DNA of 64,000 bases, taken from the NCBI GenBank assembly GCA_035610835.1, contig CM069449.1, forward strand, positions 45,218,768 to 45,282,767, written 5' to 3'. Numbering within the stretch: the first letter of the stretch is position 1; each line of letters opens with the position of its first letter. The notes beneath the pieces were generated by a model. That model was not told the origin of the DNA. It worked only from the letters and a program-made list of their open reading frames with translations, and did no database searches. A program made the position numbers and the translations under genes. The stretch comes from Ophiura sarsii (lineage: Eukaryota; Echinodermata; Ophiuroidea; Amphilepidida; Ophiuridae). Positions 12,374-48,580 of this stretch are shown piece by piece.

Positions 12374-12621
12374 CACTCTAAGAAAAAGGTGCTTCAGGGA
12401 TTCTTGGCTGTCCCGTATATGGCACCCTTTATAGAACTTAAAATGTTCCAAAAAGAACATTTAAAAGGTTCCAAAAGAACAAAAAAATGCGTCTTTAGAA
12501 CCTTTAAAGGATCTCTACAGTAGTGTTTTGGGTTCTTTAAATTAAAAGAACCTTTAAACTGGAGGGTTCCATATACGGGACATCCAAGAACCCATCATGC
12601 AGCACCCCTTTTCCAAGAGTG
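12374..12621. mobile_element. MITE with CACTCTAAGAAAA ends in a TA target, copy 2
   Basis: This is the same element in the same position of the minisatellite unit as copy 1, 592 bp downstream. It has some internal length change. Flanking TA is at 12372-12373 and 12622-12623. It most likely arose by duplication of the array block and not by a second insertion. Confidence 0.85.
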
Positions 12622-13292
12622 TAGCTCCAAACAAATTTTGCATTTTGATAATGACTAATACGGTGGTTGCTATCTACAGAAGATAGCTCCAAACACATTT
12701 TACATTTTGATATGATTTTTAGGCGGTTGCTCTCTACAAAAGATAGCACCAAGCACATTTTGCATTTATATATAATTGATACGGTGGTCGCTATCTACTA
12801 AAGATAGCACCAAGCACATTTTGCATTTTGATATGATTGATATGGTGGTTGCTGCTATCTTCTGAAGATAGCACCAAATACATTTTGAATTTTGATATGA
12901 ATTATACGGCGGTCGCTATCTATTGAAGGTAGCTCCAAATACATTTATATATGACTGATACGATGGTCATGTTGCTATCTACTGAAAATAGCTCCAAACA
13001 CATTTAGCATTTTGATATGCCTAATACAGTGGTTGCTATCTACAGAAGATAGCACCAATCACATTTTGCATTTTGATATGATTGATATGGTGGTCTACTG
13101 AAAACAGCTCCAAACACATTTAGCATTTAGATATGACTGATACGGCGGCTGGTATCTACTGAATATAGCTCCAAACACATTTAGCATTTTGATAAGATTG
13201 ATACGGTGGTTGCTATCTACCGGAGATAGCATGCACCAAATACATTTTGTAATTAGATACGACTGATACGGCGGTTGCTATAGTAGGCCTAC

Positions 13293-14380: not shown

Positions 14381-14890
14381 GGTCATGGTGGTTGCTATCT
14401 ACTGAAGATAGCTCCAAACACATTTAGCATTTTGATATGACAAATACGATGGTTTGCTATATACTGAAGATAGCACCAAACACATTTTGCATTTTGATAA
14501 GATTGATACGGTGGTTACTAGTCTATATAGCTCCAAACACATTTTGATATGACTTTTCGGCGGTTGCTATCTACAGAAGATGGCACCAGACATATTTTGC
14601 TAGATATGACTGGTACGGCGGTAACTATCTACTGAATATTGCTCCAAACACATTTTACATTTTTATATGACTTTTCGGTGGTTGCTATCTACTGAAGACA
14701 GCACCAAACACGTGCTACATTTAGATATGACTGATACGGCGGTTGGTATCTACTGAAGATAGCATCAAACACATTTTGCTATTCGATATGTCTGCTATAG
14801 CGGTTACTATCTACTGAAGATTGCTCCAAACACCTTTTGTATTTTGATATGACTCTTCAGTGGTTGCTATCAACTGGAGACAGTTTTTGT
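14381..14890. repeat. Minisatellite cluster 3
   Basis: About eight units of the ~60-bp family are present. The order and rare variants (GACAAATACGATGGTTTGCT, GACTTTTCGGCGGTTGCTAT, CACGTGCTACATTTAGATA) match cluster 1 at 886-1235, so this is a copy of that block and not an independent expansion. Confidence 0.85.
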
Positions 14891-23444: not shown

Positions 23445-24360
23445 GAACTTTTTGGAGGGGTTAAGCTTTTTCCTACACACAGGAGCACACTGCAGTAAGG
23501 GTTCCCATGTTCACCATAGGGCTCCGGTCTACAACTACAGTGTAGATGCATCACTGTGATGATCTGACATTCTCGGTTTCTCTGCGTGCCTATTCCTACA
23601 TGCAGGAACACTGCAGTAAAGGGTTCACATGTTCACCATAGGGCTTCGGTCTACAACTACAGTGTAGATGCATTACTGTGATGATCTGATATTTTCTGTT
23701 TCTCTGCGTGCCTATTCCTACTGGCAGGAGCGGGTTCCCATGTTCACCATAGGGCTCCGGTCTAAAACTACAGTGTAGATGCATCACTGTAATGATCTGA
23801 CATTCTCGGTTTCTCTGCGTGCCTATTCCTACATGCAGGAGCACTGCAGTAAGGGTTCCAATGTTCACCATAGGGCTAGCTTTGGTCTACAACTACAGTG
23901 TACACGCGTCACTGTGATGATCTGACGTATTCTGTTTCTCTGCGTGCCTTTTCCTACATGCAGGAGTACTGCAGTCAGGGTTCCCATGTTCACCATAGGG
24001 CTCAGGTCTAAAACTACAGTGTAGATGCATCACTGTGATGATACTGACGTTTTCCGTTTCTCTGCGTGCCTATTCCTACATGCAGGAGCACTGCTGTAAA
24101 GGGTTTCCATGTTCACCATAGGGCTCCGGTCTACAACTACAGTGTAGATGCATGTGATGATCTGACATTTTCTGTTTCTCTGCGTGCCTATTCCTACATG
24201 CAGGAACACTGCAGTAAAGGGTTCCCATGTTCAAATAAGGCTTCGGTCTACAACTACAGTGTACACGCGTCACTGTGATGATACTGACGTTTTCTGTTTC
24301 TCTGCGTGCCTATTCCTACATGCAGGAGCACTGCAGTAAGGGTTTCCATGTTCCCCACAT
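23445..24360. repeat. ~113-bp tandem array abutting the SNAPC2 3' end
   Basis: About eight units contain GGGTTCCCATGTTCACCAT, AGGGCTCCGGTCTACAAC, TACAGTGTAGATGCATCAC, TCTGCGTGCCTATTCCTAC and ATGCAGGAGCACTGCAGT. The unit at 23660-23755 lacks the ATGCAGGAGCACTGCAGTAA part. On the minus strand the last unit (24270-24360) is in frame with SNAPC2 exon 5 and provides its final ~35 codons and stop. The array may have grown from the gene's own terminal exon. Confidence 0.85.
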
Positions 24361-24649
24361 GGTTCAGGTCTTATCAGATTCACTTTATCAACTGGTATAT
24401 TGAATGGATTAAGCGTTCCTAGTCCTGATACATCACTCGAAGTTTCAACATCTTGTGATGAGGAAGTCTTGCTGGAACCGGGTACCTTGGACGCAGACGA
24501 AGAAGATGATTTCTCCAGGGAAGACGGTGAATAGAGTTTGTAGTACAGATGCGTGTAGCGCTCTCTTAAGAAATCTACATGCTCGTGTACGTCGGTGTGC
24601 TGTAGAAACTCTATTGTGTTATTGAGGCACTCCAGGACTACCATTGCAT
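24270..24649 (-). CDS. SNAPC2: SNAPC2 coding exon 5 and stop
   Basis: The acceptor is TTTTTTTGTACAG. It encodes DAMVVLECLNNTIEFL, a Ser-rich stretch, then GLGTLNPFNIPVDKV. From about 24362 onward the frame is tandem-array sequence, ending TSVSSQ and TGA at 24272-24270. Confidence 0.85.
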
Positions 24650-27600: not shown

Positions 27601-30600
27601 TACGGCGTTACGCCAACTTACGGTAAGTACCTTCGCGCGGGATGTTTGAATAAAAAAAGACACATTTTGCAAGATTTGGTATCCAAGGAAGCTTAATGAG
27701 GTAAGATTTATGCAAGTGGTCGTATCTCGTATCGCGTTACTTTTGCTTGTAAGCTCAGTCGTTTTTTGAAATAAGCTTTTGTAGTCTACAAATCACGATG
27801 GATAAATCAATGAATTCTGCTACCAGCAAGCGATTTGTACTGCACACTCGAGAGGAAATCAATGAAAAGAGGGATAATTTGATACCAATCAACACCAAAC
27901 GAGCGAATGTTAAGGCAGGGAGAGCTTTTAGAGCATTTCTTATGGAGAGAGGTGATGGAACTGGCCCAGTGGATTTTGAGAATTTTGACGCGCCTGTACT
28001 CAACGAATGCTTGTCAGAATTTTATTTCAGCGCCAGAACACTGAAAGGCGAGAAGTACTCTATGGCGTCTTTGATCAACCTGCGGCACAGCCTGTCACGA
28101 TATTTGAAATCGCCACCATTCAATCAAACTGTTGATATAATAAAGGACGCCATATTTCGCGAGTCACAGGAAGCATTCAAAGGAGCAGTTAGGGAATTGA
28201 AGGTAGAAGGAAAAGGGGCGATCAAACATCATCCAGAGATCGAGGATGGAGATCTAAACAAGCTTTACCAACAAATGAAGAGCTTTGATGCAGCCAATCC
28301 AACAGAACTACAAGAGAAAGTACAGTTCGACATCAGGTTATATTTTTTCCGTAGAGGTTCGGAAAATATGCACTCTATGACCAAATCAACATTTGCTGTT
28401 CAACACACCCCAGAAGGCGACCGCTATGTATGCCAAGTGCTTGATGAACTTAACAAAAACCATACACAAAGTTGTGCAGAATCGTACACGGCATTCATGC
28501 CGGAGAGAAAAGGAGATCCCAAGTGCCCGGTCGAATCCTTCCTCAAATATGTAAGCCACCTTCATCCAGAGAGCGACAAGCTATGGACCAGACCAAAGCC
28601 TGCCACATCATCCCAGGTATGGTATTACAATCGTGCCATAGGTTGTGATAAGCTGCGTGGCTTTATGAAGGATATGAGTTTGAAATACAGGCTTTCCAAG
28701 ATATACTCAAACCATTCGATCCGAGTGACGGGAGCAACCATACTCACCCGCGATTCATATGCATCATCGCAAATCAAGGAAGTGACGGGGCACAAATCAG
28801 TATCAAGTTTGGCCATATACCAACGGGTTTCAAATGGAGAAAAGATGCGTATGGGACAGAGCCTCACTGACAAAACCCTAGGTGTTCCACATCAACCTAC
28901 ACCTGTATCAGTGAATATGAGGAATCCGCAAGCGTCACCTGCACCTCCATCAATTAATACACCATCTACAAGTTCTTCTACTACTGAATCTGACATGATA
29001 GAATACCTTGATATGGACGTCGAAAGCTTCTTGGAAAACTTCCAACACAGCTCAGACACGGAGCCTCAGATAAGTCCATCCATGCCACTTCCTTTGATGA
29101 CCACTTCTGCTCCAGTTCATGCACCTGCAACAGAATCTGCTTTTTCAACACCTTCAACTGCACCAGCCCCTCCTTTGATACCATTACCATCCATGACCAC
29201 TACACCGTCAGCTTCATGGACACCTTACAATGGTCCAGCAGTTTCATCTTTAGGAAGACCTGCCACGCCTCCATCATCAGAACTACAGTCTATTGACTTT
29301 AATTTGAGTCCATTCCTCCGTGATCTTTTGGATGACCCAGAATTTGAAACAACACAGCAGCTCTTGGTTCAAACGACTGCCAGAGGTCCAGGTAATCGAG
29401 GTCATCAATCTTCAATGATGCAGCAATTCCACCATGCGTCTCCTAATCCAAGACCAACACGCCCAGTAATTTTTTCTGGATGTAGCAATATCACGATCAA
29501 TAATCTGACAATCAACGTTCAACCTCGCTAAAATCAAAACTAATCAATATGGAGAGACTGTAAATATGTAAATAATTGGATTTTTTGTTGGAATTTTGAA
29601 TATGTTGAGACTTTACTGTTTGTTGTTGAATTTTAAAAACTGGAATTCTTCTTGGAATTGGAATATGTGAAACATTGAATGGATTAGAACATTTGCACGA
29701 ACAATAATTTATTGGATTTTTTAACACTGGATCAAGGCTTTGCTGTTGAAGATTATTCAGGTAAGTTGATATCAAGTAAATCATGTTTTATTTTGTGTAG
29801 GCCTATAATATTAATAGGCCTAAACACTGACCCTTCAATTTACCCCCCCCCCCCCCCAAGATAATGAATCAACCCAAAACTTGTATTCAGGTAACAAAGC
29901 AATACAGGATATATCACCTCTTTTGAAACCCAGACCCCTACATAGACAAAATGGATCAACCCTAAATGGTAGTAAACCAATCAGAAGCTGCCATCAAGCT
30001 TACAACGCAATACAGGATATATCGCGTTGTTCCTAAGTGATAAATTCGTTATCCCCTGTTTGATAACGCAATACGGTCGATACCTATGGTTGGGTGCCAT
30101 ATCACATTCGGCCTCCGGCCTCATGTGATATGGCACCCAACCATAGGTATCTTCCCGTATTGCGTTATCAAACAGTGGATAACTAATAGTATTGATTGTA
30201 TCAATTTGTAATACTTGCCTTAGTTCATTCATGGAAATAATTGCACTTCAATGGTGCGATTTCTACTCAAAAACGGCCTGTACGTCCACAACAACCTCAA
30301 AATCAGCCAAACCGAGAATGATAGGTCAAATTCCAAATTATATCATGTAACTACAACCTATAACCTTTGATATGAGACATAAATTAGGTTATTTCGACGA
30401 TTTTCAATTTTTTCAATTTTTTCAATTTGGGTTACCTAATTACGGAACTGCCCATTTATGAAAATGCTTTTGTCAGTTAGCTAACACTTCAAACCTTCTA
30501 AAAAGTAACTTCAATAATGATACACTCTAAAAAGTTCACAGAGTTTTCACTTTGCGTAAACATGTGAAAAAACCACCAATCGTCTGCGTCATTACGCAAC

Positions 30601-33600
30601 GCAAATTTGCATATATGCAAATTAGGGTACTTGGAAGCGCAGTCTAATTTTTTCCCTAGGTTTATTTTTTGAGTATCAATCGCTATTATCAAATAAAGTT
30701 GTAAAATGGGGAGTACTACAAATCTCTGGGTTTTACACCCAAAAGAAAGTGGATATTTGTGTGTAAATGTCATTCCGCAACGCGTGGAATTACCCATATC
30801 AGTTTTATGGAGCCTATGTCTGAGACTTAACAGCCCCCTCAAGTATAAACTTACCTATAGGTGATAAGTCATTCAACTCATGAGCAGGAACACCCTTCAG
30901 TAGTGTGGCAAGGAACAGGTTGATAGCCTATGTCGGAGACTTAACAGCCCCCTCAAGTATAAACTTACCTATAGGTGATAAGTCATTCAACTCATGAGCA
31001 GGAACACCCTTCAGTAGTGTGGCAAGGAACAGGTTGATAGCCTATGTCGGAGACTTAACAGCCCCCTCAAGTATAAACTTACCTATAGGTGATAAGTCAT
31101 TCAACTCATGAGCAGGAACACCCTTCAGTAGTGTGGCAAGGAACAGGTTGATAGCCTATGTCGGAGACTTAACAGCCCCCTCAAGTATGAACTTACCTAT
31201 ACGGCCGTAATTTGGCAAAACAGCGTAACTCGAAAATGACGTTTTTGAGATATGAGCACTTTAAAGTGTTAGTGTTTGCTTTTTTAAAAATTATTTACAG
31301 AGTAAGTTCATTTAAAAGGAAAACGTGCATGCTGTTACATTTTCTTTATTTTTAAAATCTTAAGTAAAATAAACTGTTTCTACTAAAGATACAGCTGATT
31401 TTAACCAGATACGCGGGTTTGCCAAATCGACATCTAATTATACGCAGAGTTAATCTTGCAAAAACAGCGTAACTCAATTTACGTGTAATTCTTTGGTTAC
31501 TATTTTTCGCCAAACCCGCGTATCTCGTAGCAAAATCGCTGTTTGGCAAAGGCGCGTAACTTAGAGATACGCTGTTTTGCCAAGAAATTACTAGATTTTG
31601 AAACACGTAATACGAGTTACGCTGTTTTACCATATTGAAATGCTAACGGTTGCAAAACAAGGCTGAGATACGCTATGCTATCTTTAAAACGGTACGTCGA
31701 GGGCTTTTGAGACTATCACAAATGAAAAGAGCGCCCTCGATTTCCCCAAAAATACATTTAACTCAAAATGTCAATATTTCGACTTACGCTGTTTTGCCAA
31801 ATTACAGCCGTATAGGTGATAAGTCATTCAACTCATGAGCAGGAACACCCCTCAGTAGTGTGGCAAGGAACAGGTTGATAGCCTATGTCTGAGACTTAAC
31901 AGCCCCCTCAAGTATGAACTTACCTATAGGTGATAAGTCATTCAACTCATGAGCAGGAACACCCCTCAGTAGTGTGGCAAGAAACAGGTTGATAGCCTAT
32001 GTCTGAGACTTAACAGCCCCCTCAAGTATGAACTTACCTATAGGTGATAAGTCATTCAACTCATGAGCAGGAACACCCCTCAGTAGTGTGGCAAGGAACA
32101 GGTTGATAGCCTATGTCTGAGACTTAACAGCCCCCTCAAGTTTGAACTTACCTATAGGTGATAAGTCATTCAACTCATGAGCAGGAACACCCTTCAGTAG
32201 TGTGGCAAGGAACAGGTTGATAGCCTATGTCTGAGACTTAACAGCCACCTCAAGTATGAACTTACCTATAGGTGATAAGTCATTCAACTCATGAGCAGGA
32301 ACACCCCTCAGTAGCGTGGCAAGGAACAGGTTGATAGCCTATGTCTGAGACTTAACAGCCCCCTCAAGTATGAACTTACCTATAGGTGATAAGTCATTCA
32401 ACTCATGAGCAGGAACACCCTTCAGTAGTGTGGCAAGGAACAGGTTGATAGCCTATGTCTGAGACTTAACAGCCCCCTCAAGTATGAACTTACCTATAGG
32501 TGATAAGTCATTCAACTCATGAGCAGGAACACCCCTCAGTAGCGTGGCAAGGAACAGGTTGATAGCCTATGTCTGAGACTTAACAGCCCCCTCAAGTATG
32601 AACTTACCTATAGGTGATAAGTCATTCAACTCATGAGCAGGAACACCCTTCAGTAGTGTGGCAAGGAACAGGTTGATAGCCTATGTCTGAGACTTAACAG
32701 CCCCCTTAAGTATGAACTTACCTATAGGTGATAAGTCATTCAACTCATGAGCAGGAACACCCCTCAGTAGTGTGGCAACGAACAGGTTGATAGCCTATGT
32801 CTGAGACTTAACAGCCCCCTCAAGTATAAACTTACCTATAGGTGATAAGTCATTCAACTCATGAGCAGGAACACCCTTCAGTAGTGTGGCAAGGAACAGG
32901 TTGATAGCCTATGTCTGAGACTTAACAGCCCCCTCAAGTATGAATTTACCTATAGGTGATAAGTCATTCAACTCATGAGCAGGAACACCCCTCAGTAGTG
33001 TGGCAAGGAACAGGTTGATACGGGTATAATTAGGTTGGCTTGGGTCACTTCTATTGGCTTGTGTATCAGTGCTGGCTGAGGGTTCTGAAATAGCTGTCCG
33101 GAACACCTATAATTATGTCATAAATCAAGATTAGAAATACATTAAGTATGTCAATATATAATCATTTCGTTATTTTATCAAAAAATTAAAACATTGGAAG
33201 AAAGTATTTGTAAATGAAGTCAATATTGATTAAGCCAGAAGAGAAAAGAAAAAGAAGTTGACAAGCCCTGTAAGTGCCGACATCTAGGGTTGTCAGTCAA
33301 TTTTTTTTTTTTAGGGAATCAAACAGAAACTATACAAGAACACAGATGTTAACGAATGTTGAACATGCAACTTTCTTCTTTATTAAAACTCTTCTAAGTT
33401 TCAATATTAAACAACTTAGTCAGTAATTGATGATTTATTGACACACAGAACACTTTTTTGCAAAAAACACAATTTGTATAGCCTTACTGTCAACTTCATT
33501 CAGATTTTATTAAAAATGTGTTTTTAATCTGTTTCTTGAAAAAGCTCTTTGATTGACATATGAAGTACCACCTGTCTATCGTACAGGGTGAGTCAAATCA

Positions 33601-36600
33601 ATAATACTTTTATTAGATTTCTGTCACAGTATATCATACCTGTATCTATTCCTTTTAATTGAAAGATTCAAAGATTACTTCTTTGTTTTCCTTCTTTTAA
33701 TTAAAAATGCATGTTACACTCTAAACATTTCAATGAAGCATGCAAGTCAGACACTTGATTTAACCTGGCTTGACTATAAATTAAACCAATGTTTCAGACT
33801 TTATTTATTGACTGAACTATCACAACTTCACATGACTTGACTTGGCCTTAAAGGTAGGTGTTCCGAATGCTGGCCCGATTTTCAACTTGATGTTCTCTAT
33901 TCTACATGAAGGGTCATCCTTAAATTAGTTTGTATTTAAAGTTTGAGTTGCATAACTCCAATGGTTCTTATTATATTACAAGGTGACATGAAATTTTACC
34001 ATTGAGTAGTTCACAAACTGGCTGTGTGGTTAACCACCTTTGGCAGTAATTCACTATATTTTGGCCTATAACGTCTAAATGGAACATATCTGGCGCCATA
34101 TATTTTACAGAAATAATGAGAAAAATATGGGGTTTCTTCTGATATCAAAAAATGTTGATGTGAAAAACCCTAAAGGGATTGGAACATTCAGTTTTAAGTG
34201 ACCTGTTACAATTTTACAAACTTATAAAAATGTGTTTGAACACGGACCCTAATTGATAAGTGGTGTGTCCCAAAACATGCACGCTATTTGGGTGAAAATA
34301 GAAATTTGTTTATGGTTGTCTGAAAAATCCCTTCCTCATACCCCTCCTGCTTCCACACCGATCAATGTTGCGAGGCCATGTGCTGATGGTGGACAGATTG
34401 TGGTATTCAAAATTGATCAGAGGGAGGTAGGGAAACACTGCACATTAGACCTTCAATGTGATGTGATCTGTGATTTTTTAAGATTTAATTTTAGAAAATT
34501 CATTTCCAATACTTTGTGTCATCATCTTTCATGAAATTTCGCCTTCAAAAACTTACTTAAGTCACTTCTCTAATAAACTTTATTATGTTATGCTATTGTA
34601 TTGTACTAAAAAGAACTATGTATCTTTTTTTGCCTGTTTTCATGATTTCTAGTTTTGCAGCTATTTATGACATCACAATCATCATTTACTCATAACTTGT
34701 TTTGTAGTGATTATAGAAAAATGATCGAAACAGTTCTGTGATCAGCACAATTTCAGCTTTCTTATGATATAAATATCTTCAATTTGAAAAGTCCCACCAT
34801 GTGGTGGATCTCATCACCAATATGTGACCTGGCACAACAAAATGAGAGCAAAGTTGCAAAAAAAGAAAAATGATTTATTCACATTTTCAGAAAGTAGATG
34901 TCCCCAGGTTTATATTGACACCAAAGTTGGTATAATAGGACATTCCAAAGTGAAATTATGATTAATTGAAGTTAATCAGTGCTGAATTATTGAATTAGAG
35001 AAAAAGCCCTTCAAAGTCAATGAAACTTATCGTCACTTGGTGTACAAATGCCAATCACAGGTCTTAATCGAAAGATTGTATATGCCAAAGACCTCTTATT
35101 AAACGGCCTCTCATTGGTTCATTTCGGAGTATACAGGTTTCAAACTACTATTAATAGCTTTGGAAAGCCCTAAATTTGCCATAAGGGATACTATTTTAAA
35201 CCCTTGGAAATGACGATGTAAACATGGTAATTTCGAGACATTTCAAAACATTTTTCCTCTCTTTGCGTTCATTCTTGAGATGTAAGAATAAAATGCTCTC
35301 TCTAAAATAGCTTAAAAAACATATCTAGACCCAAAATATTTTCTTAAACTTCAGAATGTGATACATAAATAATTTATCTTTCCGAAAATGATCATATCTC
35401 ACTTTCGACCTCCCCTTGTCAAATCGACTATTTCAGGCCATAACTCAAAATCAGCCCCAGCGACTTTACGCTCATTTTGTTGTGCCAGGTCACATATGTA
35501 GTGATGGCGGATCCAACCCAAGATCGGTACGTCCGATCTCCGATCAGAAAATTTACAGATCGGGCAGATTTAGATCTCCCGTATTATAATATGAAACCAG
35601 CGCGAATCATTAAATAAGCTTACTTTTAGTCTAATTTTCTTCCCTGCATGACAACATATTAAATTCTGCAAGATATTACTGGCAAAGAAGTTTCATAATT
35701 TTCATTATTCCAATTACTTTCTGGCGTATTTTGACTTTTTTCGCCGAAGAAAGATTGTTTTTATTCATCGCTGTGCGTCGCCATTTTAATTCATCATAAG
35801 TGTACATCCACCAGTCTTTCAAGATTACCATACATTCCCTGGCACTGTACTATTAATAGAGTGATGTATGAGGGCGGCACAGTTTTAGTCTAGTAAATGT
35901 GCAATACCATGTGCGATAATTGGGTGGTACCAAAATTGTAATTTACTACAATAGAGTAACATAACATACCGGGAATCACGATTTACTTTCTAGAAACGTT
36001 GGCTATTTTTTTTCCTTCCGAGGGGATCAATAATTGCTAGATCGGTAGGGTGGATCGCTAACTTCCATTTTTTCCCCGATCCCGATCCAATGCCGATTCA
36101 ATGTAGATCGGCACTGATTCCGATTTCCCGATAAGGATCGGCCATCACTACACGTCCAAACAATATTTTCTAACATTGTCATTTTATCCACCCACTCACC
36201 TTGCTAATTTCCCTGTGACTTTCATCATTCATTGTACGGTTGATATCATGTGCTAAATTCTCCCAACACTACAGGTAAAAACAATACAAAGAACATTGTT
36301 TATACAGATCACATACGAGGGGGTATCAAAAAGTTCTTGAAATCACTCAGAAGTGAAGGAGTCAGAAACTTGTTTTCGTTATGTGACCCTTCAGACATCT
36401 TAAAAAAGTCACTGTGCAAAGTCACACATTTCTCCTACTATTTATGACCTGTCCACAGACCGCCATTTTAGGGCTCCTCAGATTGACCGCCATTGATTGA
36501 TCGTCAGATTGCCTCAGATTGCGTTATTCCCAAAATGACAGCAATAAATAGTTTAAAGTGATGACAGAAAGGGGTCAACGGTCATTCATTACAAACAAGC

Positions 36601-39600
36601 TTGGTGACAATAATCTTGTGGGTAACATGGGGTGTACACAGGTTGACCTCTAATGACCCTACATGACCTTTGACCCCTTTCTGTCAACACTTTGAACTAT
36701 TTATTGCTGTTTTGGGAATAACGCAATCTGAGGCAATCGGAGGATCAATCAATGTCGGTCAATTTGAGGAGCTCTACAATGGTGGTCTGTGGACAGGTAA
36801 TAACCCGGGGGGCCAGTCAAACATAATGGTGTACACAGGCGTGACCAATTTTTTTCCAGACACCCCCTAAACAAGTTTTACCCTGCAAGCAAAATCACCC
36901 CCTTAACAAGTTTTTAGCGCGCTTTCCTTGCAAAATTTGACCCCTAAACAAGTTCTTGCCAGAATATGACCCCTAAACAAGAACGGAGATAACATTCTTC
37001 TGGGAACGGGGAACAAAACAAGTTACCCTGAACTTTACACGTTCGACCTGTATTTTAAGCCACCCTTTTTCTTGAAAATCAGCGTTTTTGATACCCTTAA
37101 CGCGTCACGCGCGTGACGCGTCCAACACTTAAAAAACACCCCTTTTTACGCGTTCGACCTGTATTTTAAGCCACCCTTTTTCTTGAAAATCAGCGTTTTT
37201 GATACCCTTAACGCGTCACGCGCGTGACGCGTCCAACACTGAAAAAACACCCCTTTTTACGCGTTTTTTTGGTCACGCCTGTGTACACCATTATGTTTGA
37301 CTGGCCCCCCCGGGGGTAATAAATTATAGTGGGAGAAATGTGTGACTTTGCAGTGACGTTTTAAAGATGTCTGAATGGTCACATAACAAAAACAAGTTTC
37401 TGGCTCCTTCACTTCTGGGTGATTTCAAGAACGTTTTGATACCCCCTCGTATGTATAGTTGTCTTTACTTAGAGAATAAAAGATGGACATTTTGTTTTGG
37501 TTGCCGTACTATGGTGTGACAATGGATGGGTTTGTCCATATTTTCGCTGACATCCACTACATCTTTTATTGTCTTTCTAATGCATTTTAACCTTTAAATA
37601 ATAAATGTGTAAGATAAAAAAACTGGGGAAATTGATCGTAATATTTTAATAAAAAATTGACCACCCCTTTCTGAAAAATTGACGCAACCTGTGCGCCTGA
37701 TGACATCATAGCCATCCATTGGGGCCTGACAGGGGATGTCAGAAATATTGTGGGTCCAATTACATTGACTGAATAAAGTGATTACCTTCAAACCACACAT
37801 AAACTAAGTTAGACCAATCTCATTGTGGTTACAAATAAGGTTACGGTTAAGATGAATTTAAGAATGATAGATACAGGTCTTGAAAAAGCACAAATAGCGG
37901 TTGATTTTTGCATTGGGCGGGTGAAAATACAAAAGCAACCGCCCGACTGGTGGCTAAACATTTCAAACTCACAGTGAAGTGAGTTACAGTTTAGTAGCTT
38001 GAGGAACTACTGTGGAGCAGTTACGGTTGACAAAAATCATATGTTCTAGCCCTGGACAGATTGCTACTCTTGCTGAAGTGTATGCATGGACAAATCTTGT
38101 GGTTGTCTGCAGGGCTCAAAATTCTTTTTTGATTAAGAGTTGATAAAAAGTAGCCCCTGTGTGTACTTTTTGGCATTGATTGATATTTTTCAGGGCGAAT
38201 CACCCTTAGCCACAGTCTATTTTGAGCCCTGCTGTCAGAAGAATGACACAAATTAATACACATTCATCCATCATCATGTTATGTTGAGGTCAAAGGTCAA
38301 CTCACCTGAAGAGGAGGCATTCCGATAGTTTCTTCTAAAGCTTTATCTGCAAAAAAATATATTTTGGAAATCTCATTTAAAGTATGCTTATATCACATAA
38401 AATATTCACTATAGGTACTAATGCTGGGAGTTATCATTAATTTGCTATCCGTTTAAACGAGCAGGATTAAGGACACTAATAGTTTAGACGTTGATCCAAT
38501 TTAAGGCCTACAAAAGAAGTGAACACACTTTTGTTCCACAGCTACACAACTACCAAATTGTGCGCCACCAGTAAATGCAATTCTTGCAGAATAAATCGAA
38601 CGTAACAAATTAATATTTTTTATTTGGTTATGTTTTAATTTCAAGCTAACTAAATCAGTTAAAATCCCAAATGCTCGCAGGATATTGCAAAAATGTGATA
38701 CCGAATTCATTGTAAATCCCTCATTAATACATGTAGGAGCACTACTACATAAACTGCTGACGCCAGACGACGGTAGTCACGAAGTGCAAACGTGTAGTGA
38801 ATTTAGTAACCTTTCCATTCGTTTAAACGCCGAAAGGTGTACACGTCCCAGCACCACTTTACGTCACACAGAGTTGTCAAAAGCTTAGCTGTTCCCTAAC
38901 CCAGCTTTCCTTACATGAAAAAAAAGAACACCCATTTATTTCCAAACGCTTTACTTAAAATCGTGATTAAGGCCCAAGAATGTCTAGCTGAATCTTTGGC
39001 TCAAATATAAAGGGGCGGGTGGCTCAATTACATAGGTCCGGGACTGGCATGCAGGCGACTCGGGTTCAATTCCTGGCACCGGTGGGCTGTTTTTTCCTCC
39101 AACTCCTTTTTTCTCTGTCTTGGATTGTTTTATTCCCAAAACCACACCGCTTGGGTTACAGAGCTTACATCACTCATTACAGTGGATGCAACCTTGTCTA
39201 ATTTTCATATTTGAGTCCCGAGGCATCAAAATCTAGCAAAGTGGCTACATGATTATCTTCGGGGAATGAACATTTCATGCTCGCTTTGCCAACACTTGCC
39301 ACATTTGCAATATCAAAATTACCCAATTAGCCGATAACGCCAATATTTGTGGCATAAAGGTTTTGTGATCTACCATCGTCGCGAAATGTGATTCAGCACA
39401 TACATGTAAGGGGGCTTTGCGGCTGTGTGTTTTTCAGGATATAAATGAAAACAGACAAATAATCACAATAATAAGAACTTGGGAGTCATTTTCACTCGCA
39501 AAATCTGAATTTCTTAATCAATTTTGATAAATTTAGTGTCATTTTAAACCTTAGAAAATGCTCCAAGAGCACACATAATAAACTCAAAATTGACTTCACT

Positions 39601-42241
39601 TGCAAAAGTCCCCCCGTTTTGATGTGCTGCATATGCACATAAGAATGCCATTTCTTACGGTAGTAGGATTAATGACTTGGACTAATGCTTACCTACAGCC
39701 CTCTTCCTGAGGGCATCAATTTTTGCTTCAATCTGTCTAATATTCTTTGTCTTGACATGTCTTTTAACCGAGTGTGCCTTGTCTGGACACTTGTACCTGT
39801 GTGCAATCAAGGGAAATCAACAAAAGGACAACATTATTAAAGGATATCATATGTATTCTACATGAACATGCATCACAAATACAGTCATATAAATAACATG
39901 TGAGTTAAATATTATTGCTCCAGTGGTTTTTATGATAGAACTAAAAATACACTTCAAATTTGCCCATTAAATAGTCTCAGTTTGATCAGCTCCAAATTGG
40001 CGAGCCTCCTTACAGCTGCGAATCAATACATGCAGAAGGGTGTGGGCGCACATGAATGCAGCAAAGCACACTGTGCATCATATGTGTGACACGTGTGTGC
40101 AGCCAAAACTGTGTGGATGCGTATGGCCGGAATCGTGTAGATACATTTTGATTACTTTTGCGTGCCGAGATAAAGACAGCATATACGCTGAATGAAGGGG
40201 TCGTGATGACCTCGAAAGCTACAGAGCTCAAACACCATGGTTCGAAAAAGGTATCTAAATTATTCCTAAAATCATGATCGAACCCAATATCAGTCTACAT
40301 GCTGCTACAGCATATATTGTTTGCCAATTTGGAACTGACTAAATGATAAGAAGTGGTGTACAACTTTTTTCATCTACAGGAAATATCTCTCCGGACAATT
40401 TTTTTTACGTGATGAGGAAAATATGGGTTTTTTTTCTTTTGATACCAACAGTTTGATAAGGAATGATGGGGGTCACCCACCTTAATCACAAATGCAAATT
40501 ATGTTTAGAATCCCATAAAATGTGGGGAAGGAAAGCTATTCAAATCTTATTGAACAGCTACATATAGGAATGTTTAAGCCATTTCATTTGATTTCACAGA
40601 ATTTGTTGACAGTGGTGATGTGAGAGAGGCAGGGCTTGTGGTTGTTGTCATGTTGGTTGTCAGAAGTGAAAAGAAAGTTTCAATATATTACAACTGTGTC
40701 TGTCTGCCCTTCTCTGCATGGTTGTACAATTATCTCAACACATACATGTAGCACAATGATTTACACAGGGTTGAAAATAAATCTGGGGTACAACAGAAAA
40801 AATCCCACCCTGTTGTAGGGGCCCAACTGACACAATTTTTTTAAATTAGCAAAAGAATTCCTTTTTTTAAGAACAATTTTGGGGAGCTTTTTTATATTGA
40901 CAAAAATTGCAATGTGTGGACAATTTTTGAAATTTATTCAAATTCACCAAAAATTCCTGATTTCTTTTTATTATTTGTAAAGGGATTCTTCGGCTTGACT
41001 GATTTCCTTTCTTTGGCCGTAAGAGTGATGTCAAGTTATTTGGAATGCACTGTTGCAGTGGTACACGCCACACCTGACTATAAAGAGATATTGTGATGAA
41101 ATTAATAGAAAACAGGGATGCAAGACTTAAATGTGGCAAAAAAAAGAAATCCACATATTTTTTTTTTTTTGCATTTCCTGAATCGGATGATGCTATTTCA
41201 GTAAAAAGAGGCAAGCATGGCTGTTACCTATTCTCCAGACGAGCCGCCCCCCCCCCCCAATATAAGATCTGCAGTATGTTGCATGTAAACGCTCAGGCCA
41301 TCTGGCCGAGCTCGCGTAAAAAGTTCAGGAAATGGATCAATCAACCCACTTGCATCATTGAGAATAAGTAGGGAACATATCCACACTGCAAGTACCGTAA
41401 AACAACTTAATTTCGCTAATTTCGCTAGGCGATCCAATTCGCCAAATTAAATTGCCCCCAATTATATTATTTATATTGGTTATATTATAGGAAGATGATA
41501 CAAATTAATTAAATTAAATTGCCGCAAAAAAGTTGCCTAAATTCGCTAAATTAAGTTGCCGTGAAATTAAGTTGTTTTACAGGACTAGATTGAGATACAT
41601 TGGGTTTTTTTTAATTTTCATCAAGCACAGTATAAATCATTCTAGGACACCCTCAACTTAACATGCTTTCAAAACAAGCAGGGTTGTAGCTAGGCCAGAT
41701 TGAGTGCCAACTAAATTTACTGACATAAGTGTAGCAAACAAAGTGCAGTGGATCACGGCATGGGGTCCAGAGGCCTGCTTAATGTTTTTTAGGTTTTGTA
41801 ATGCACTTTGAGGGTTCCTGCCACATAATTTCTTATTCTATGAGGCAGTTTCATAATGATTCTATTCATTAGATTTACACCCGACCGACGCAGCTAGCTA
41901 CATGTACAAGTATGGTACATTAAAGAAAAAACAAAAATCTCATACGTTTTGAGACAATCTAAGAGCCTCTCCAGTTCATCTTCTTTCCATGTATCTCTCG
42001 GTTGTCGCGAGCACGAGGGTAAATCAACATCCTCCGAGTATGTCTTTGGAGTGACACGACGGCGGGATGATTTGCGGCTTGCTACTTCTGTAGGTGCGGC
42101 TGTTTCTTTGCGGGCTTTGTAGCTTCGTTTTCTATTAGCAACAGAACGGGAGGCATCCTTCAAAGATGCGTCGCTCGTGTTTTGTACATTATCTGAAAGC
42201 TGAGATGAAGAGGATGCATGCTCGTCTTTTACGGTTGCCAT
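24270..42241 (-). CDS. SNAPC2: SNAPC2, snRNA-activating protein complex subunit 2 (five coding exons)
   Basis: Subunit of SNAPc, the nuclear factor that binds the proximal sequence element of snRNA promoters for RNA polymerases II and III. Coding exons on the minus strand are 42241-41946, 39796-39693, 38346-38306, 33106-32950 and 24649-24270. All introns are GT-AG, phases 2, 1, 0, 1 join without a frame break, and the product is 325 residues (human SNAPC2 is ~334). Residues ~60-70 (RRRVTPKTY) and a SANT/Myb-like segment (TWKEDELERLLDCLKTY) match the vertebrate N-terminus. A basic helix (IRQIEAKIDALRKRAV) follows. The C-terminal half has LSPIDAMVVLECLNN, like LSAAESAVVLDLL in the human protein, and a LNPFNIPVD motif near the end, like LNPFLVPLE. 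The ATG context is GAAACCATGG. The final ~35 residues come from the adjacent tandem array. Identification is by remembered family motifs; no alignment was run. Confidence 0.85.
24650..25480. other. SNAPC2 intron 4, anonymous part
   Basis: AT-rich intronic sequence with no gene or recognisable element. Confidence 0.5.
25490..26110. repeat. Repeat with CATTCCGCAACG motifs
   Basis: GTCATTCCGCAACG occurs at about 25501 and 26073-26101 (twice), and inverted as GTTGCGGAATGAC at about 25670. Related words appear at 30570 and 30770. It is probably one or two non-autonomous transposons whose ends use this word; exact borders are unresolved. Confidence 0.5.
26157..26780. repeat. Repeat with TTGCGGACGTAC motifs
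   Basis: TTGCGGACGTAC occurs four times directly (about 26173, 26338, 26529, 26549), and the inverted form GTACGTCCGACAC occurs at 26584 and 26758. The head GGGCAATTCCGTAGTTGCGG suggests a transposon end. It is non-coding. Confidence 0.55.
26960..27083. repeat. Two-copy tandem duplication, ~61 bp
   Basis: GTAATCAGCTGTTC(T/C)GG(T/C)AATGTTTAC and ATATATTTCGTATTGCGTA are each repeated once. Confidence 0.8.
27084..27797. other. Sequence upstream of the Crypton ORF
   Basis: No gene is certain. A 69-codon plus-strand frame at 27487-27696 and a 110-codon minus frame overlap each other here. Neither has a recognised domain. The stretch may contain the 5' untranslated region or promoter of the recombinase gene. 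Confidence 0.35.
27798..29531 (+). CDS. Crypton-type tyrosine recombinase (DUF3504-like)
   Basis: A 577-codon uninterrupted frame, in antisense orientation within SNAPC2 intron 4. The N-terminal ~130 residues look like the core-binding region. The catalytic part keeps the tyrosine recombinase set: Arg at 185/186 (FFRRGSENM), His306 and Arg309 (HSIRVTGATILTR), His332 (TGHKSVSSLAIYQR) and Tyr341. This arrangement is that of Crypton transposons and of the host proteins derived from them (ZMYM2, QRICH1, KCTD1 families). From ~365 the protein is rich in Pro, Ser and Thr, and it ends with GCSNITINNLTINV. Cryptons act through circular DNA intermediates and lack terminal inverted repeats, which fits the absence of any pair of ends here. 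It could be an active Crypton or a domesticated single-exon gene. Confidence 0.8.
   Translation: MDKSMNSATSKRFVLHTREEINEKRDNLIPINTKRANVKAGRAFRAFLMERGDGTGPVDFENFDAPVLNECLSEFYFSARTLKGEKYSMASLINLRHSLSRYLKSPPFNQTVDIIKDAIFRESQEAFKGAVRELKVEGKGAIKHHPEIEDGDLNKLYQQMKSFDAANPTELQEKVQFDIRLYFFRRGSENMHSMTKSTFAVQHTPEGDRYVCQVLDELNKNHTQSCAESYTAFMPERKGDPKCPVESFLKYVSHLHPESDKLWTRPKPATSSQVWYYNRAIGCDKLRGFMKDMSLKYRLSKIYSNHSIRVTGATILTRDSYASSQIKEVTGHKSVSSLAIYQRVSNGEKMRMGQSLTDKTLGVPHQPTPVSVNMRNPQASPAPPSINTPSTSSSTTESDMIEYLDMDVESFLENFQHSSDTEPQISPSMPLPLMTTSAPVHAPATESAFSTPSTAPAPPLIPLPSMTTTPSASWTPYNGPAVSSLGRPATPPSSELQSIDFNLSPFLRDLLDDPEFETTQQLLVQTTARGPGNRGHQSSMMQQFHHASPNPRPTRPVIFSGCSNITINNLTINVQPR
29532..30047. other. Spacer with poly-C run and GCAATACAGGATATATC direct repeats
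   Basis: Poly-C at about 29842-29858. The word AGCAATACAGGATATATC(A/G)C occurs at 29897 and 30007, and it is related to the hairpin that follows. No gene is recognised. Confidence 0.5.
30048..30183. repeat. Near-perfect 136-bp hairpin
   Basis: GTTATCCCCTGTTTGATAAC, GCAATACGG and GATACCTATGGTTGGGTGCC pair with GGCACCCAACCATAGGTATC, CCGTATTGC and GTTATCAAACAGTGGATAAC. The loop is only a few bases. It would form a cruciform in DNA or a long stem in RNA. Confidence 0.85.
30184..30807. repeat. Mosaic of diverged repeat pieces
   Basis: Holds GTACGTCCACAAC (30288), AATTACGGAACTGCCCA (30431) and GTCATTCCGCAACG (30770), relatives of the two families at 25.5-26.8 kb. Gene content is nil. Confidence 0.45.
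30808..33022 (-). repeat. 14-copy, 114-bp tandem array derived from SNAPC2 exon 4 and its splice donor
   Basis: Each unit contains, on the minus strand, 73 bp of exon 4 (GCTATCAACCTGTTCCTTGC through TTATCACCTATAG), the donor, and ~41 bp of intron with CTTGAGGGGGCTGTTAAGTC. Donor copies sit at about 30853, 30967, 31081, 31195, then 31922 and every 114 bp to 32949. Most have GTAAGT, the exon-4 copy GTAAAT. Copies lack the upstream half of exon 4 and its acceptor. One unit is interrupted by the transposon at 31202-31810. Units differ by very few substitutions, so expansion is recent. Confidence 0.9.
31198..31814. mobile_element. 609-bp TIR element with TATA target duplication
   Basis: The element occupies 31202-31810. 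CGGCCGTAATTTGGCAAAAC pairs with GTTTTGCCAAATTACAGCCG. TATA flanks both sides (31198-31201, 31811-31814). All sibling tandem units read CCTATAGGTG with a single TATA. The word TTGGCAAAACAGCGTAACTC and its complement recur internally. It is non-coding. A TA duplication with TA included in the TIR is an alternative reading. Confidence 0.85.
32950..33106 (-). CDS. SNAPC2: SNAPC2 coding exon 4
   Basis: 157 bp, acceptor ATAATTATAG, donor GTAAAT. The first half is unique (VFRTAISEPSAS...). The second half (INLFLATLL to LSPI) together with the donor is the template of the 14-copy, 114-bp tandem array that fills 30808-33022. Only this copy carries the unique upstream part and acceptor. Confidence 0.85.
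33107..34820. other. SNAPC2 intron 3, left part
   Basis: GTACAGGGTGAGTCAAATC at 33584 is an isolated transposon end of the CAGGGTG type. The stretch of about 33853-34030 (TTAAAGGTAGGTGTTCCG..., ATTCTACATGAAGGGTCATC) is an inverted, diverged relic of the TTAA element at 43020-43377. No gene is seen. Confidence 0.5.
34821..35496. mobile_element. 672-bp TA-target element with TGTGACCTGGCACAAC ends
   Basis: The element spans 34823-35494. TGTGACCTGGCACAACAAAA pairs perfectly with TTTTGTTGTGCCAGGTCACA, and TA lies on both sides. The interior is AT-rich and non-coding. It is a Tc1/mariner-like MITE. Confidence 0.85.
35499..36150. mobile_element. 652-bp element with TAGTGATGGC ends
   Basis: TAGTGATGGCGGATCC at the left pairs with GGATCGGCCATCACTA at the right. 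GATCGG words recur near both ends. No clear duplication was found, perhaps because another element lies only 2 bp from its left end. hAT affinity is possible but not shown. Confidence 0.7.
36314..37451. mobile_element. Mariner-like long-palindrome element (interrupted)
   Basis: The element spans 36316-37449 with TA on both sides. CGAGGGGGTATCAAAAAGTT pairs with AACGTTTTGATACCCCCTCG. Inverted complementarity runs about 265 bp inward (GTCACACATTTCTCC, CCTGTCCACAGACC, CAATAAATAGTT and their complements). Without the 511-bp insertion in its right arm it would be about 615 bp and almost entirely hairpin. Confidence 0.85.
36796..37322. mobile_element. 511-bp TIR element with 8-bp GGTAATAA duplication
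   Basis: The element spans 36804-37314. CCCGGGGGGCCAGTCAAACA pairs with TGTTTGACTGGCC plus CCCCCCGGG. GGTAATAA is duplicated at 36796-36803 and 37315-37322, a length typical of hAT. Inside are two direct copies (~108 bp) of a block with CGTTCGACCTGTATTTTAAG and the palindrome ACGCGTCACGCGCGTGACGC. It is non-coding. Confidence 0.85.
37452..38305. other. SNAPC2 intron 3, right part
   Basis: Anonymous intronic sequence containing the short MITE listed separately at 38110-38231. Confidence 0.5.
38110..38231. mobile_element. 122-bp hAT-like MITE with CAGGGCTCAAAAT ends
   Basis: CAGGGCTCAAAAT pairs with ATTTTGAGCCCTG. CAGGGCTC-type termini are common among hAT elements. No intact 8-bp duplication was seen. 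Confidence 0.65.
38306..38346 (-). CDS. SNAPC2: SNAPC2 coding exon 3 (41 bp)
   Basis: Acceptor TTTTTTTGCAG, donor GTGAGT. It encodes DKALEETIGMPPLQ once joined to the last base of exon 2. It was identified only because both phases fit. Confidence 0.8.
38347..39011. other. SNAPC2 intron 2, anonymous part
   Basis: No gene or paired repeat is seen between exon 3 and the SINE-like head. Confidence 0.45.
39012..39160 (+). repeat. tRNA-derived SINE head
   Basis: GGGTGGCTCAATTACATAGG resembles a polymerase III A box and GGGTTCAATTCCTGG (39062-39076) a B box, about 45 bp apart. The following CCGGTGGGCTGTTTTTTCCT departs from a tRNA, so this is a tRNA-derived SINE and not a tRNA gene. The 3' end is uncertain. 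Confidence 0.6.
39161..39692. other. SNAPC2 intron 2, distal part
   Basis: Anonymous sequence; nothing is recognised. Confidence 0.45.
39693..39796 (-). CDS. SNAPC2: SNAPC2 coding exon 2
   Basis: 104 bp, acceptor TTGCACACAG, donor GTAAGC. It encodes YKCPDKAHSVKRHVKTKNIR and IEAKIDALRKRAV, completing the SANT-like domain and a basic helix. Confidence 0.85.
39797..41394. other. SNAPC2 intron 1, anonymous part
   Basis: Contains a poly-T/A stretch near 41157-41171 and a poly-C run near 41247-41257. Coding features are absent. Confidence 0.45.
41395..41582. mobile_element. MITE with CCGTAAAACAACTTAATTTC ends
   Basis: CGTAAAACAACTTAATTTCG pairs with GTGAAATTAAGTTGTTTTAC, with inner AATTCGCCAAATTAA and TTCGCTAAATTAAG repeats. 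It is about 190 bp and AT-rich. Confidence 0.7.
41679..41860. mobile_element. Truncated copy of the CAGGGTTCTAG hAT element
   Basis: CAGGGTTGTAGCTAGGCC followed by ACAAAGTGCAGTGGATCACG and GCACTTTGAGGGTTCCTGCC matches 61380-61780 in order. The right terminus is missing. Confidence 0.75.
41946..42241 (-). CDS. SNAPC2: SNAPC2 coding exon 1
   Basis: It starts at ATG 42241 and encodes 98 codons plus two bases, ending at donor GTATGA. It is rich in Ser and basic residues, then enters the SANT-like region. An acceptor-like TTATTTCAG lies 18 bases upstream of the ATG, so an extra 5' untranslated exon is possible. Confidence 0.85.
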
Positions 42242-46089: not shown

Positions 46090-48580
46090 ACGAAACTTGC
46101 AATTGTCGCTCTGTATTGAAATGTGTGCATTAGAAGCATATTCGTAGGCACGGCAATTGATTACTGCGCAATCGCTTCTGAGGACAATCTTATCTCTAAC
46201 TGCACCGTTGACTTAAGACTCTCGGATCATCATGTTGTGTATTGCTCAATAATGCTACCAAAACCCAGGTATCAGCAAATTAAATTTAGTATGCGCAAGA
46301 TGAGGAACATTGATACCAAATCTTTCAACGACGATCTTGCACCTCTACTTGAATCACATAGTGATAATGCCAATGATCTTGTTGAACTCTATAACCGCAC
46401 CATAAAGCAAACTCTTGATAAACATGCTCCCATCACCACAAGATCTCGTACCAATAGACCCCATCACCGTTGGTACAATAGTGAGATTCATGCTGCCCGC
46501 CGCCTTCGCCGCAAGTATGAACGGATGTGGAGGAAGAGTAGACTTGAAGTCCATCATGAGCTATATGTAGCCCAAAGGATAGTGGTCAATGACTTACTTG
46601 ACAATGCAAAGAAAGATCACTACAGGTCTGAGCTTGAGCATGCAGATACTAAGACCATTTTTAAGAAGGTTAAAACCCTTCTTAATCAAGGTGCCAAAAT
46701 ACTACCGGATGACAAATCTGATCAAGATCTTAGTAACGACTTTTCCACATTCTTCACAGATAAGGTTGACAAGATATACAAGAGCATTGAACTAGAGCTT
46801 AATGAAGGCAACTATACTGACCCAGTCCCTCAACACGCAGTTGATTGCGAATTTCGCGAATTTGATCTTGTCAGTGAAGAGGACATTCTGCAGTATATCA
46901 ACAAAGCGCCTTCAAAGTCATGTCTTCTCGACCCGTTGCCGACTTGGTTCTTAAAGCAAAACACTCAGACATTTGTTCCGGTCATCACACGGATTGTCAA
47001 CACATCGCTCAGGACGGGTGTTTTTCCTACACCACTCAAGCATGCCGTGATTACCCCCATCATTAAGAAACAATCTCTGGATCGCAATCTGCTGAAAAAC
47101 TACAGACCCGTGTCTAACATCCCCTTTGTATCTAAAGTTATCGAAAAGCAAGCTATCAAAAGCATCACTGACTACATGATCCGCGAAGATCTTGCAGAAC
47201 CTTTACAATCAGCATACAGGGCTTTGCATAGCACTGAGTCAGCGCTTCTTAAAGTTAAAGATGACATAATGCAGAACTTATCTCAACGGAAAGGTGTTTT
47301 CCTCGTCCTTCTAGACCTGAGCGCAGCATTTGATACTGTGAATCACTCTATCTTGCTCAACCGACTTTCCCATGACGTAGGGATTAAAGGAGTTGCATTC
47401 AAGTGGATAGAGTCATACCTTACCGGCAGAACAACTAGTGTTTGCATCAATGGAGTCTCCTCTGATACCAACAGATTAAGATATGGGTTACCACAGGGAT
47501 CTATAGTTGGTCCCCAGTCATTCGCCATTTACTCCATTCCAATTGGCCGCATCATTAGGAAGCATAACCTGCAATATCACCTGTACGCAGATGACATCCA
47601 ACTGTATGTACCTTTTGATATACATGACCAGGAATCCATATCTACCGCCCTGTCTCGGCTTTCTTCATGCATATCCGACATCAAATCATGGATGACTCTC
47701 AACATGTTGAAGCTCAATGAACAGAAAACAGAGTTCTTTATCGCTGTGCCAGACCATCTCAAAAGCAAGGTACCTTCTGTTTCTCTTCAGGTCGGCGACA
47801 AAGTTATCAAGCCATCTGACAGCGTCCGCAACCTCGGTGTTGTGTTTGACAGCTCTATGTCCATGCATTCTCACATTAAAACCTTATGTTCTAGCCTGAC
47901 TTATCAACTCAGAAACATAACCCGGATCCGTAAATTTATGGACTACGATACTTGTCACCTAATTGTGCGTGCGTTGATCTTATCACGTTTAGATTACGGA
48001 AATGGGTTGCTCCTCGGTTCAAACGCCTGTGACATTCAACGTCTACAAAGAACCCAAAACTGGGCGGCTAAGCTCATTTGTATGGCTAAGAAATTTGATC
48101 ATGCAACGCCTTGTCTCCAGGAGCTGCATTGGTTGCCGGTCAGAGAACGTGTGACTTTTAAAATCTTAGTTACTGTGTTTAAGTGCCTCTCAGGCGTAGC
48201 ACCGGGCTACCTATCATCTTGCCTTTCTCTGAACAAACCACGACGTGGCAACCTGCGATCGGCTTTGGATACTACACAACTAACTCAGCATTCAACCATC
48301 AAAACTCTTACATCAGCCAGTAATCGGACTTTCACCTATGTCGCTCCAGCAATATGGAATCACCTTCCCGCTCTCATAAGAAATCAGGACTCTTTACACA
48401 TGTTCAAGAAATCTGTCAAAACATATTTGTATCCAAATGTCGTGTAACTTGTATCATATTGTACTTTATATGATGTTTGTTTGTTCATTATCCTTTTGTT
48501 CCATTGGGTTTGCTTTTCTCACGCGCTTTGATCTTGATGAAAAGGCGCTTTATAAATGCTCATTTGTATTGTATTGTATT
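46090..48580 (+). mobile_element. 5'-truncated L2/CR1-like LINE
   Basis: The 3' tail reads GGCGCTTTATAAATGCTCAT followed by TTGTATTGTATTGTATT, the kind of short terminal microsatellite used by CR1/L2 elements. The 5' border is approximate; most of the endonuclease domain is gone. No target duplication is evident. Confidence 0.8.
46123..48447 (+). CDS. LINE endonuclease remnant and reverse transcriptase (L2/CR1 group)
   Basis: 774 open codons. The first ~45 residues are the end of an APE-type endonuclease, with the late catalytic SDH motif (RLSDHHVVYC). A linker follows, then the reverse transcriptase: LLDLSAAFDTVNHSIL (Asp398), GLPQGSIVGP and YADDIQLYV (catalytic Asp490-Asp491), then a thumb and C-terminal region with LSRLDYGNGLLLG and LQELHWLPVRERVTFKI. 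These blocks are typical of L2/CR1-lineage non-LTR elements, which copy themselves by target-primed reverse transcription in the nucleus. The chosen ATG is only the first Met left after 5' truncation; the natural start is lost, as is the front of the endonuclease. No internal stop codons are present, so the copy is young but probably not autonomous. Confidence 0.88.
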   Translation: MCIRSIFVGTAIDYCAIASEDNLISNCTVDLRLSDHHVVYCSIMLPKPRYQQIKFSMRKMRNIDTKSFNDDLAPLLESHSDNANDLVELYNRTIKQTLDKHAPITTRSRTNRPHHRWYNSEIHAARRLRRKYERMWRKSRLEVHHELYVAQRIVVNDLLDNAKKDHYRSELEHADTKTIFKKVKTLLNQGAKILPDDKSDQDLSNDFSTFFTDKVDKIYKSIELELNEGNYTDPVPQHAVDCEFREFDLVSEEDILQYINKAPSKSCLLDPLPTWFLKQNTQTFVPVITRIVNTSLRTGVFPTPLKHAVITPIIKKQSLDRNLLKNYRPVSNIPFVSKVIEKQAIKSITDYMIREDLAEPLQSAYRALHSTESALLKVKDDIMQNLSQRKGVFLVLLDLSAAFDTVNHSILLNRLSHDVGIKGVAFKWIESYLTGRTTSVCINGVSSDTNRLRYGLPQGSIVGPQSFAIYSIPIGRIIRKHNLQYHLYADDIQLYVPFDIHDQESISTALSRLSSCISDIKSWMTLNMLKLNEQKTEFFIAVPDHLKSKVPSVSLQVGDKVIKPSDSVRNLGVVFDSSMSMHSHIKTLCSSLTYQLRNITRIRKFMDYDTCHLIVRALILSRLDYGNGLLLGSNACDIQRLQRTQNWAAKLICMAKKFDHATPCLQELHWLPVRERVTFKILVTVFKCLSGVAPGYLSSCLSLNKPRRGNLRSALDTTQLTQHSTIKTLTSASNRTFTYVAPAIWNHLPALIRNQDSLHMFKKSVKTYLYPNVV

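Follow-up and report, generated by a model that had tools for sequence, protein, structure and literature searches.

Fourteen tandem copies of an exon end and its splice donor at the start of intron 5 of the probable SNAPC2 gene of Ophiura sarsii

The probable SNAPC2 gene of Ophiura sarsii carries, from the end of its fifth coding exon into the following intron, 14 head-to-tail units of 114 bp, each of which repeats the end of the exon together with its splice donor (Array 1, positions 30812 to 33020, minus strand, one copy being split by an insert). Positions refer to the window, i.e. the whole stretch of 64,000 nucleotides that was analysed. The anatomy of the array, taken alone, can be held with high confidence. 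With a probability of roughly 0.5, we read it as a recent and probably length-variable expansion, neutral or mildly costly, that would be accompanied by minor unproductive splicing and by the re-removal of retained units, rather than as an evolved dosage device.

Gene model and identity

The gene is intact and runs on the minus strand from 42241 to 24270. Its six coding exons of 296, 104, 41, 69, 157 and 380 nt (the last one counted to the stop) form a coding sequence of 1047 nt. Coding exon 1 (41946 to 42241, minus strand) begins with the start codon at 42241 and was placed by homology to protein P0001; a 5' UTR exon may lie upstream of it. Exons 2 (39693 to 39796), 3 (38306 to 38346, 41 nt), 4 (36200 to 36268) and 6 (24270 to 24649, to the stop codon), all on the minus strand, follow from the alignment with P0001. 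Exon 5 (32950 to 33106, minus strand) ends with the 71 bp that constitute the exon part of repeat copy 1, and the intron behind it, intron 5, measures 8.3 kb. The reading frame is open through all exons with GT...AG junctions and is collinear with P0001. A reading as a pseudogene was dropped, the coding sequence being open over 348 codons.

Against Pfam, the protein matched the family SNAPC2 (PF11035) with an E-value of 3.3e-9 and 37.8 bits, above the gathering score of 25.5, and the gene is probably SNAPC2. Protein P0001, which comes from another source, a contig of 1126 bases, covers 97% of the query at 57% identity and can be aligned over every exon joint. At the exon 5/6 boundary it reads ...HELNELTPL-DAMVVLECLNN... 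without interruption and, because it joins the same residues, it supports the pairing of the copy 1 donor (32949) with the acceptor at 24649; the downstream exon that an earlier sequence-only reading had placed at 24649 is present, and its junction has the backing of this homologous protein. P0001 was the one relative among 2071 candidates in a homology search and the only one among 16 candidates in a further search. In a profile search at least two relatives were found among the 7990 candidates scored, namely P0001 and P0002, the latter from the brittle star Amphiura filiformis. No Rfam family reached its gathering score within the 64-kb window. SNAPC2 is described as part of a complex that activates snRNA genes; SNAPC1, 3 and 4 form its core, and SNAPC2 and SNAPC5 add stability and activity (PMC9758055).

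Anatomy, variation and history of Array 1

The repeat finder TRF reported a period of 114 in two segments, with 3.4 copies at 30811-31201 (99% matches) and 10.6 copies at 31811-33020 (97% matches), and 14 unit starts were located (33020, 32906 ... 30925). These results bear out the sequence-only reading in its claim of a tandem array of 14 copies directly downstream of the real exon. The array starts inside exon 5 (33020) and ends in intron 5 (30812). The unit length of 114 bp had been given correctly; its division had been put at 73 bp of exon and 41 bp of intron and is in fact 71 bp from the end of exon 5 and 43 bp from the start of intron 5. The repeated exon had been taken for exon 4 and is the fifth coding exon, the 41-nt exon at 38346-38306 being easily overlooked. 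It had also been stated that the copies lack the upstream half of the exon and its acceptor. This holds, as the upstream 86 of the 157 exon 5 bases and the exon 5 acceptor are absent from the units, yet each copy has an AG before its GT.

Variation was counted after excising the insert from copy 11. The copies differ pairwise by a mean of 2.46 of 114 positions (2.2%), 10 of the 114 columns are variable, and the copy pairs 2/14, 4/6 and 12/13 show no difference at all. The low divergence suggests that the array is young. Unit column 30 alternates between G and A in copies 1-9; by this alternation a dimer history is suggested, not shown, and a permutation test that set lag-2 against lag-1 similarity in the full series of 14 copies reached no significance (p 0.14). 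At the unit-to-unit join one base is common to both outer edges (1-bp microhomology), as a simple tandem duplication with subsequent amplification would leave. That the splice region is the same in all copies cannot be counted as a sign of selection, since only 10 columns vary at all. A coding role for Array 1 was set aside, as no stop-free stretch of at least 45 aa on the minus strand or of at least 80 aa on the plus strand lies within 31880-32911.

The insert in copy 11 is an inverted-repeat, MITE-like element (31203 to 31808, listed without strand; CCTA/TAGG, with a TA or TATA duplication) of about 606-610 bp, whose terminal inverted repeats of ~44 bp are 86% alike. The element carries internal copies of its own terminal motif, and a blastn search at E 1e-3 found no second copy of it within the 64-kb window. 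The insertion indicates that a repeat unit already stood at copy 11 before the element arrived, and it speaks against a purely computational array.

Donor sites

The authentic donor in copy 1 (32944 to 32949, minus strand), whose junction P0001 supports, reads TAG/GTAAAT (the slash marks the splice point). The 13 further donors, one in each of copies 2-14 (30849 to 32835, minus strand), all read TAG/GTAAGT and have their first bases at 32835, 32721, 32607, 32493, 32379, 32265, 32151, 32037, 31923, 31196, 31082, 30968 and 30854. They follow one another in steps of 114 nt, except for one step of 727 nt across copy 11. All splice-site scores given here come from matrices with approximate values, and the duplex energies were computed with the 5' end of U1. 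The copy 1 donor scored 1.73, the lowest of the 14, versus 6.25 in each of the 13 others, and its U1 duplex was computed at -7.0 versus -10.8 kcal/mol for the GTAAGT copies. The other SNAPC2 donors scored -1.08 (exon 1, a weak site), 5.68, 9.16 and 8.29. The low score of the authentic donor is in favour of some leakage to later donors. A ladder of equivalent 5' splice sites, as proposed by the sequence-only reading, is found in the sense of near-equivalent sites; strict equality fails at copy 1, the lowest-scoring one. At donor position +5, P0002 has a lysine (AAA or AAG) and is compatible with either base as the ancestral one.

The same reading had correctly noted GTAAAT at the first donor and a TAG soon after it, as well as the entry of transcripts from a later donor into a stop. 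The in-frame TAG (32909 to 32911, minus strand) is met from any donor after the first, and donors 2-14 each give a 235-aa product that stops at 32911-32909. Exon 5 measures 157 nt with donor 1, 271 nt with donor 2 and more with those that follow. With donors 2-10 the added length is a multiple of three; donors 11-14 keep the insert as well and shift the frame only past the stop. For donor 2 the stop lies 73 nt ahead of the exon 5/6 junction, and this distance grows to 2054 nt for donor 14. By the usual rule of about 50 nt, the transcripts from donors 2-14 would be NMD candidates.

Possible acceptors within the units

Each of the 14 array donors is directly preceded by AG, including copy 11, where the element lies just upstream of the unit's own AG/GT. 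This AG/GT at every unit was overlooked by the sequence-only reading. Preceded by GAATGACTTATCACCTAT, the unit AG has an acceptor score of 1.71 in 13 of the 14 units; in copy 11, with the inserted element upstream, the score is -2.77. The five real SNAPC2 acceptors score 4.94, 0.97, 0.39, -2.61 and 7.74, and with the AT-rich background the unit AG surpasses three of these five. With a flat background it reaches 2.13 and surpasses one only (exon 5, -0.08). As judged from these scores, the unit AG is inside the range of the real acceptors and not outstanding.

The gene contains 1030 AGs, and 61 of them attain the unit score; 13 of these are the units' own and one lies in the insert. Outside the array, the two strands together hold 389 AGGT sites, 2 of which reach the donor score as well as the acceptor score. 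One is the real donor of exon 3, and the other is located on the plus strand at 55109. The high donor score at the unit AG/GT is not independent evidence, because the site was chosen for being a donor. Once a unit is joined to exon 6, the acceptor score of its AG drops to 0.0 (1.13 with a flat background). By their sites, the units could be excisable as an intron, which would restore the normal mRNA in the manner of a dual-specific splice site array.

Proposed course of splicing

In the explanation that we favour, the pre-mRNA would present the authentic GTAAAT followed at 114-nt steps by 13 better-scoring GTAAGT sites, each placed after an AG. Productive mRNA would arise by joining donor 1 to exon 6 at 24649, and a minor share of transcripts would take donor 2 or a later one, keep units, run into the stop and become an NMD candidate. 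Since every site is AG/GT, the retained units might be removed again in the form of an intron measuring n x 114 nt, with 613 nt more if it includes copy 11; this could precede or follow the joining of exon 6. In one order, donor 1 would be spliced to the AG of copy k, and donor k would be regenerated; in the other, donor k would be spliced to exon 6, and donor 1 would then be spliced to the AG of copy k, now adjoining exon 6. Every order of cutting would lead to the same mRNA, in which exon 5 directly meets exon 6. Such re-removal would make a ladder of strong decoys easier to tolerate and would thereby help to explain its presence. The unproductive leak would be small, though perhaps greater than in the human ABCA7 gene, given the weakness of the first donor.

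Comparison with known systems

Among the titles and abstract openings listed in literature searches, none described an array of an exon end plus donor like that of SNAPC2; ABCA7 and UBC came nearest. In human ABCA7, the VNTR of intron 18 is described as a series of 25-bp units at the intron start, the first GT of which is the donor of the exon, with a copy number that is highly variable in people (PMC5954066). A cryptic intronic donor leads to the retention of one unit, with a frameshift, at a level of 2 +/- 1% that was similar among the tissues tested, and cycloheximide raised the stop-bearing transcripts (PMC5954066). According to the same description, this retention was independent of repeat length, and it was the skipping of the next exon that depended on length (PMC5954066). 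Both arrays abut an exon and hold a copy of the donor in each unit (GTAAGT or GTAAAT in 14 of the 14 units here). In contrast, the ABCA7 units start at GT and, as described, hold no exon sequence (PMC5954066), whereas the 114-bp units of SNAPC2 include 71 bp of exon, have AG before GT and, although their length is a multiple of three, contain a stop. As an analogy, the ABCA7 precedent speaks against an effect of array length through donor choice.

In the human genes UBC and VCX3A, tandem AG/GT sites are reported to let whole units serve as exon or intron, and RT-PCR of UBC gave a ladder with steps of one monomer, i.e. 228 nt (PMC10809524). The SNAPC2 array resembles these dual-specific splice site arrays in having AG/GT at a fixed place in each unit (14 of 14), with steps of 114 nt versus 228 nt in UBC. 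It differs in that the UBC units are described as coding and are kept in variable number (PMC10809524), whereas the units here hold a stop and lie downstream of the ordinary donor of an 8.3-kb intron. The use of the sites has been shown in UBC RNA (PMC10809524); in SNAPC2 it is putative. In its anatomy, the locus combines two known kinds, the donor-bearing VNTR and the dual-specific site array.

Two further systems share the AGGT motif. In the Rogers model, the tandem duplication of an AGGT-containing segment leads to intron gain, for which ATP2A1 and SPOG_01682 are given as examples, the latter a fission yeast gene with an intron across four 24-bp duplicates (PMC4974935). There, too, the duplicated AGGT segment supplies both donor and acceptor; however, an exon gains an intron in that model, whereas here an existing exon/intron boundary has been multiplied. 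Recursive splicing in flies likewise uses AG/GT within long introns and would allow stepwise removal. As reported, the fly segments are nearly all longer than 1 kb, the sites show stronger conservation than control AGGT, and no AGGT-to-AGGT junction was found among segments of at least 1 kb, the only ones to which that statement applies (PMC6110457). The SNAPC2 steps fall below 1 kb (114 nt, or 727 nt across copy 11) and the acceptor score is moderate; because fly segments are nearly all longer than 1 kb, the fly data lend no support to steps of 114 nt.

The array amounts to a natural test of proximity versus strength in donor choice, as a single pre-mRNA would offer one weak authentic donor together with 13 stronger, near-identical donors, which mostly follow at equal steps of 114 nt and each have a possible acceptor. 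It would equally test the rescue of overextended exons by re-splicing and the tolerance of tandem expansions at exon edges.

Alternative explanations

The array might be an inert passenger, with exon definition always picking donor 1, the whole array leaving in the lariat in one step, and the later donors and AGs practically unused. This is possible, if somewhat doubtful: the exon of 157 nt made with donor 1 is shorter than the 271 nt and more obtained with the later donors, and in ABCA7, where each unit likewise has a donor, the retention of one unit was reported at that low percentage only (PMC5954066), but the first donor is the weakest of the 14 in both matrix score and U1 duplex, which favours some downstream use, and P0002 of Amphiura filiformis is annotated as a read-through at apparently the same site. 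The sequence-only reading had instead regarded the number of decoy donors as setting the stop-containing share of transcripts and hence the SNAPC2 level. All 13 later donors do outscore donor 1, and transcripts from any of them would end at one common stop, which lies between 73 and 2054 nt ahead of the last junction. Against such a dosage function stand the reported constancy of one-unit retention over repeat lengths in ABCA7 (PMC5954066), the failure to observe tissue-specific or feedback regulation in UBC (PMC10809524) and the divergence of only 2.2% among the copies, which suggests youth. We consider a level-setting role of the array for SNAPC2 improbable. A more speculative version would tie a self-erasing ladder to U1 supply. 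The weak donor 1 would need ample U1 snRNP, the 13 strong copies would capture scarce U1, the ratio of productive to stop-containing mRNA would report U1, and retained units would be rescued by cuts of n x 114 nt from AG/GT to AG/GT. The role of the SNAPC2 complex in activating snRNA genes makes this idea testable, but by our own reasoning it would be a positive feedback, which lowers its odds, and we give it the least credence of all the readings.

It is also very improbable that brittle stars regularly make a truncated SNAPC2 protein that ends in intron 5 and that the array lies beside an old alternative 3' end. P0002 (213 aa) does terminate in LSPIGK; it apparently crosses into the intron and extends by two residues beyond the final complete codon of exon 5, where the read-through of Ophiura sarsii likewise has GK. 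However, P0002 is a chromosomal gene model and may be an annotation failure, and the read-through here continues for 11 codons more (FILEGAVKSQT). Moreover, the 114-bp units contain no AATAAA or ATTAAA, the sole AATAAA within the array span (31350) belongs to the copy 11 insert, and the 17 such words in the whole of intron 5 may be there by chance, as can happen in an AT-rich intron. The end of P0002 represents either a short form in Amphiura that ends at the intron or a failed gene model; if a similar array lies behind the failure, the expansion would be old in position and young in sequence. An error of assembly in the copy number, to which near-identical units with three fully identical pairs lend some colour, is about equally improbable. 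Ten columns vary in a patterned way (the G/A alternation of copies 1-9), and an element of ~610 bp with a target-site duplication sits within copy 11; a mis-assembly from one copy would hardly yield such patterned variation and an insert, although the exact count could be wrong.

A second array and other features of the window

Besides the young, tolerated expansion that we favour for Array 1, a second array lies at the 3' end of the gene. Array 2 (23470 to 24371, minus strand) starts inside the last exon and comprises about 7.5 units of ~122 bp, each corresponding to codons of the C-terminus, the region of the stop and some 20 bp of 3' sequence. Its seven anchors are spaced at 122, 118, 122, 125, 111 and 122 bp, mostly not multiples of three, and copy 2 lacks four bases around the stop. 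The C-terminus of P0001 (RPEPCEEHGDSYC...) supports copy 1 as the true coding sequence. With 85% matches, the units are more diverged than those of Array 1, and for this reason Array 2 is probably the older one. That a single gene should hold two separate expansions, each begun at a coding-segment edge, seems unusual.

Intron 5 also contains, at 27753-29528 on the plus strand and antisense to the gene, a stop-to-stop frame of 592 codons with weak matches to Phage_integrase and DUF3504, both below the Pfam cut-off; it is perhaps a tyrosine-recombinase element. About 640 bp past the distal end of Array 1 lies a long palindrome (30064-30170) whose arms, GATACCTATGGTTGGGTGCCATATCACAT and its complement, measure at least 29 bp each. 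Elsewhere in the window, a C2H2 zinc-finger frame at 3481-5098 (minus strand) consists of about 15 tandem 84-bp units with 14 zf-C2H2 stretches in Pfam, and clusters at 711-1216, 11476-13281 and 14539-14883 apparently belong to one minisatellite family of ~61 bp (TAGCACCAAACACATTTTGCATTTAGATATGACTGATACGG...). Two retroelement frames were recognized, one of 775 codons with a reverse transcriptase match (46120-48444, plus strand) and one of 1171 codons with matches to RT, RNase H and integrase (53721-57233, minus strand). An AT-rich tandem array with periods of 107 bp and 360 bp occupies 63326-64000 and reaches the end of the window.
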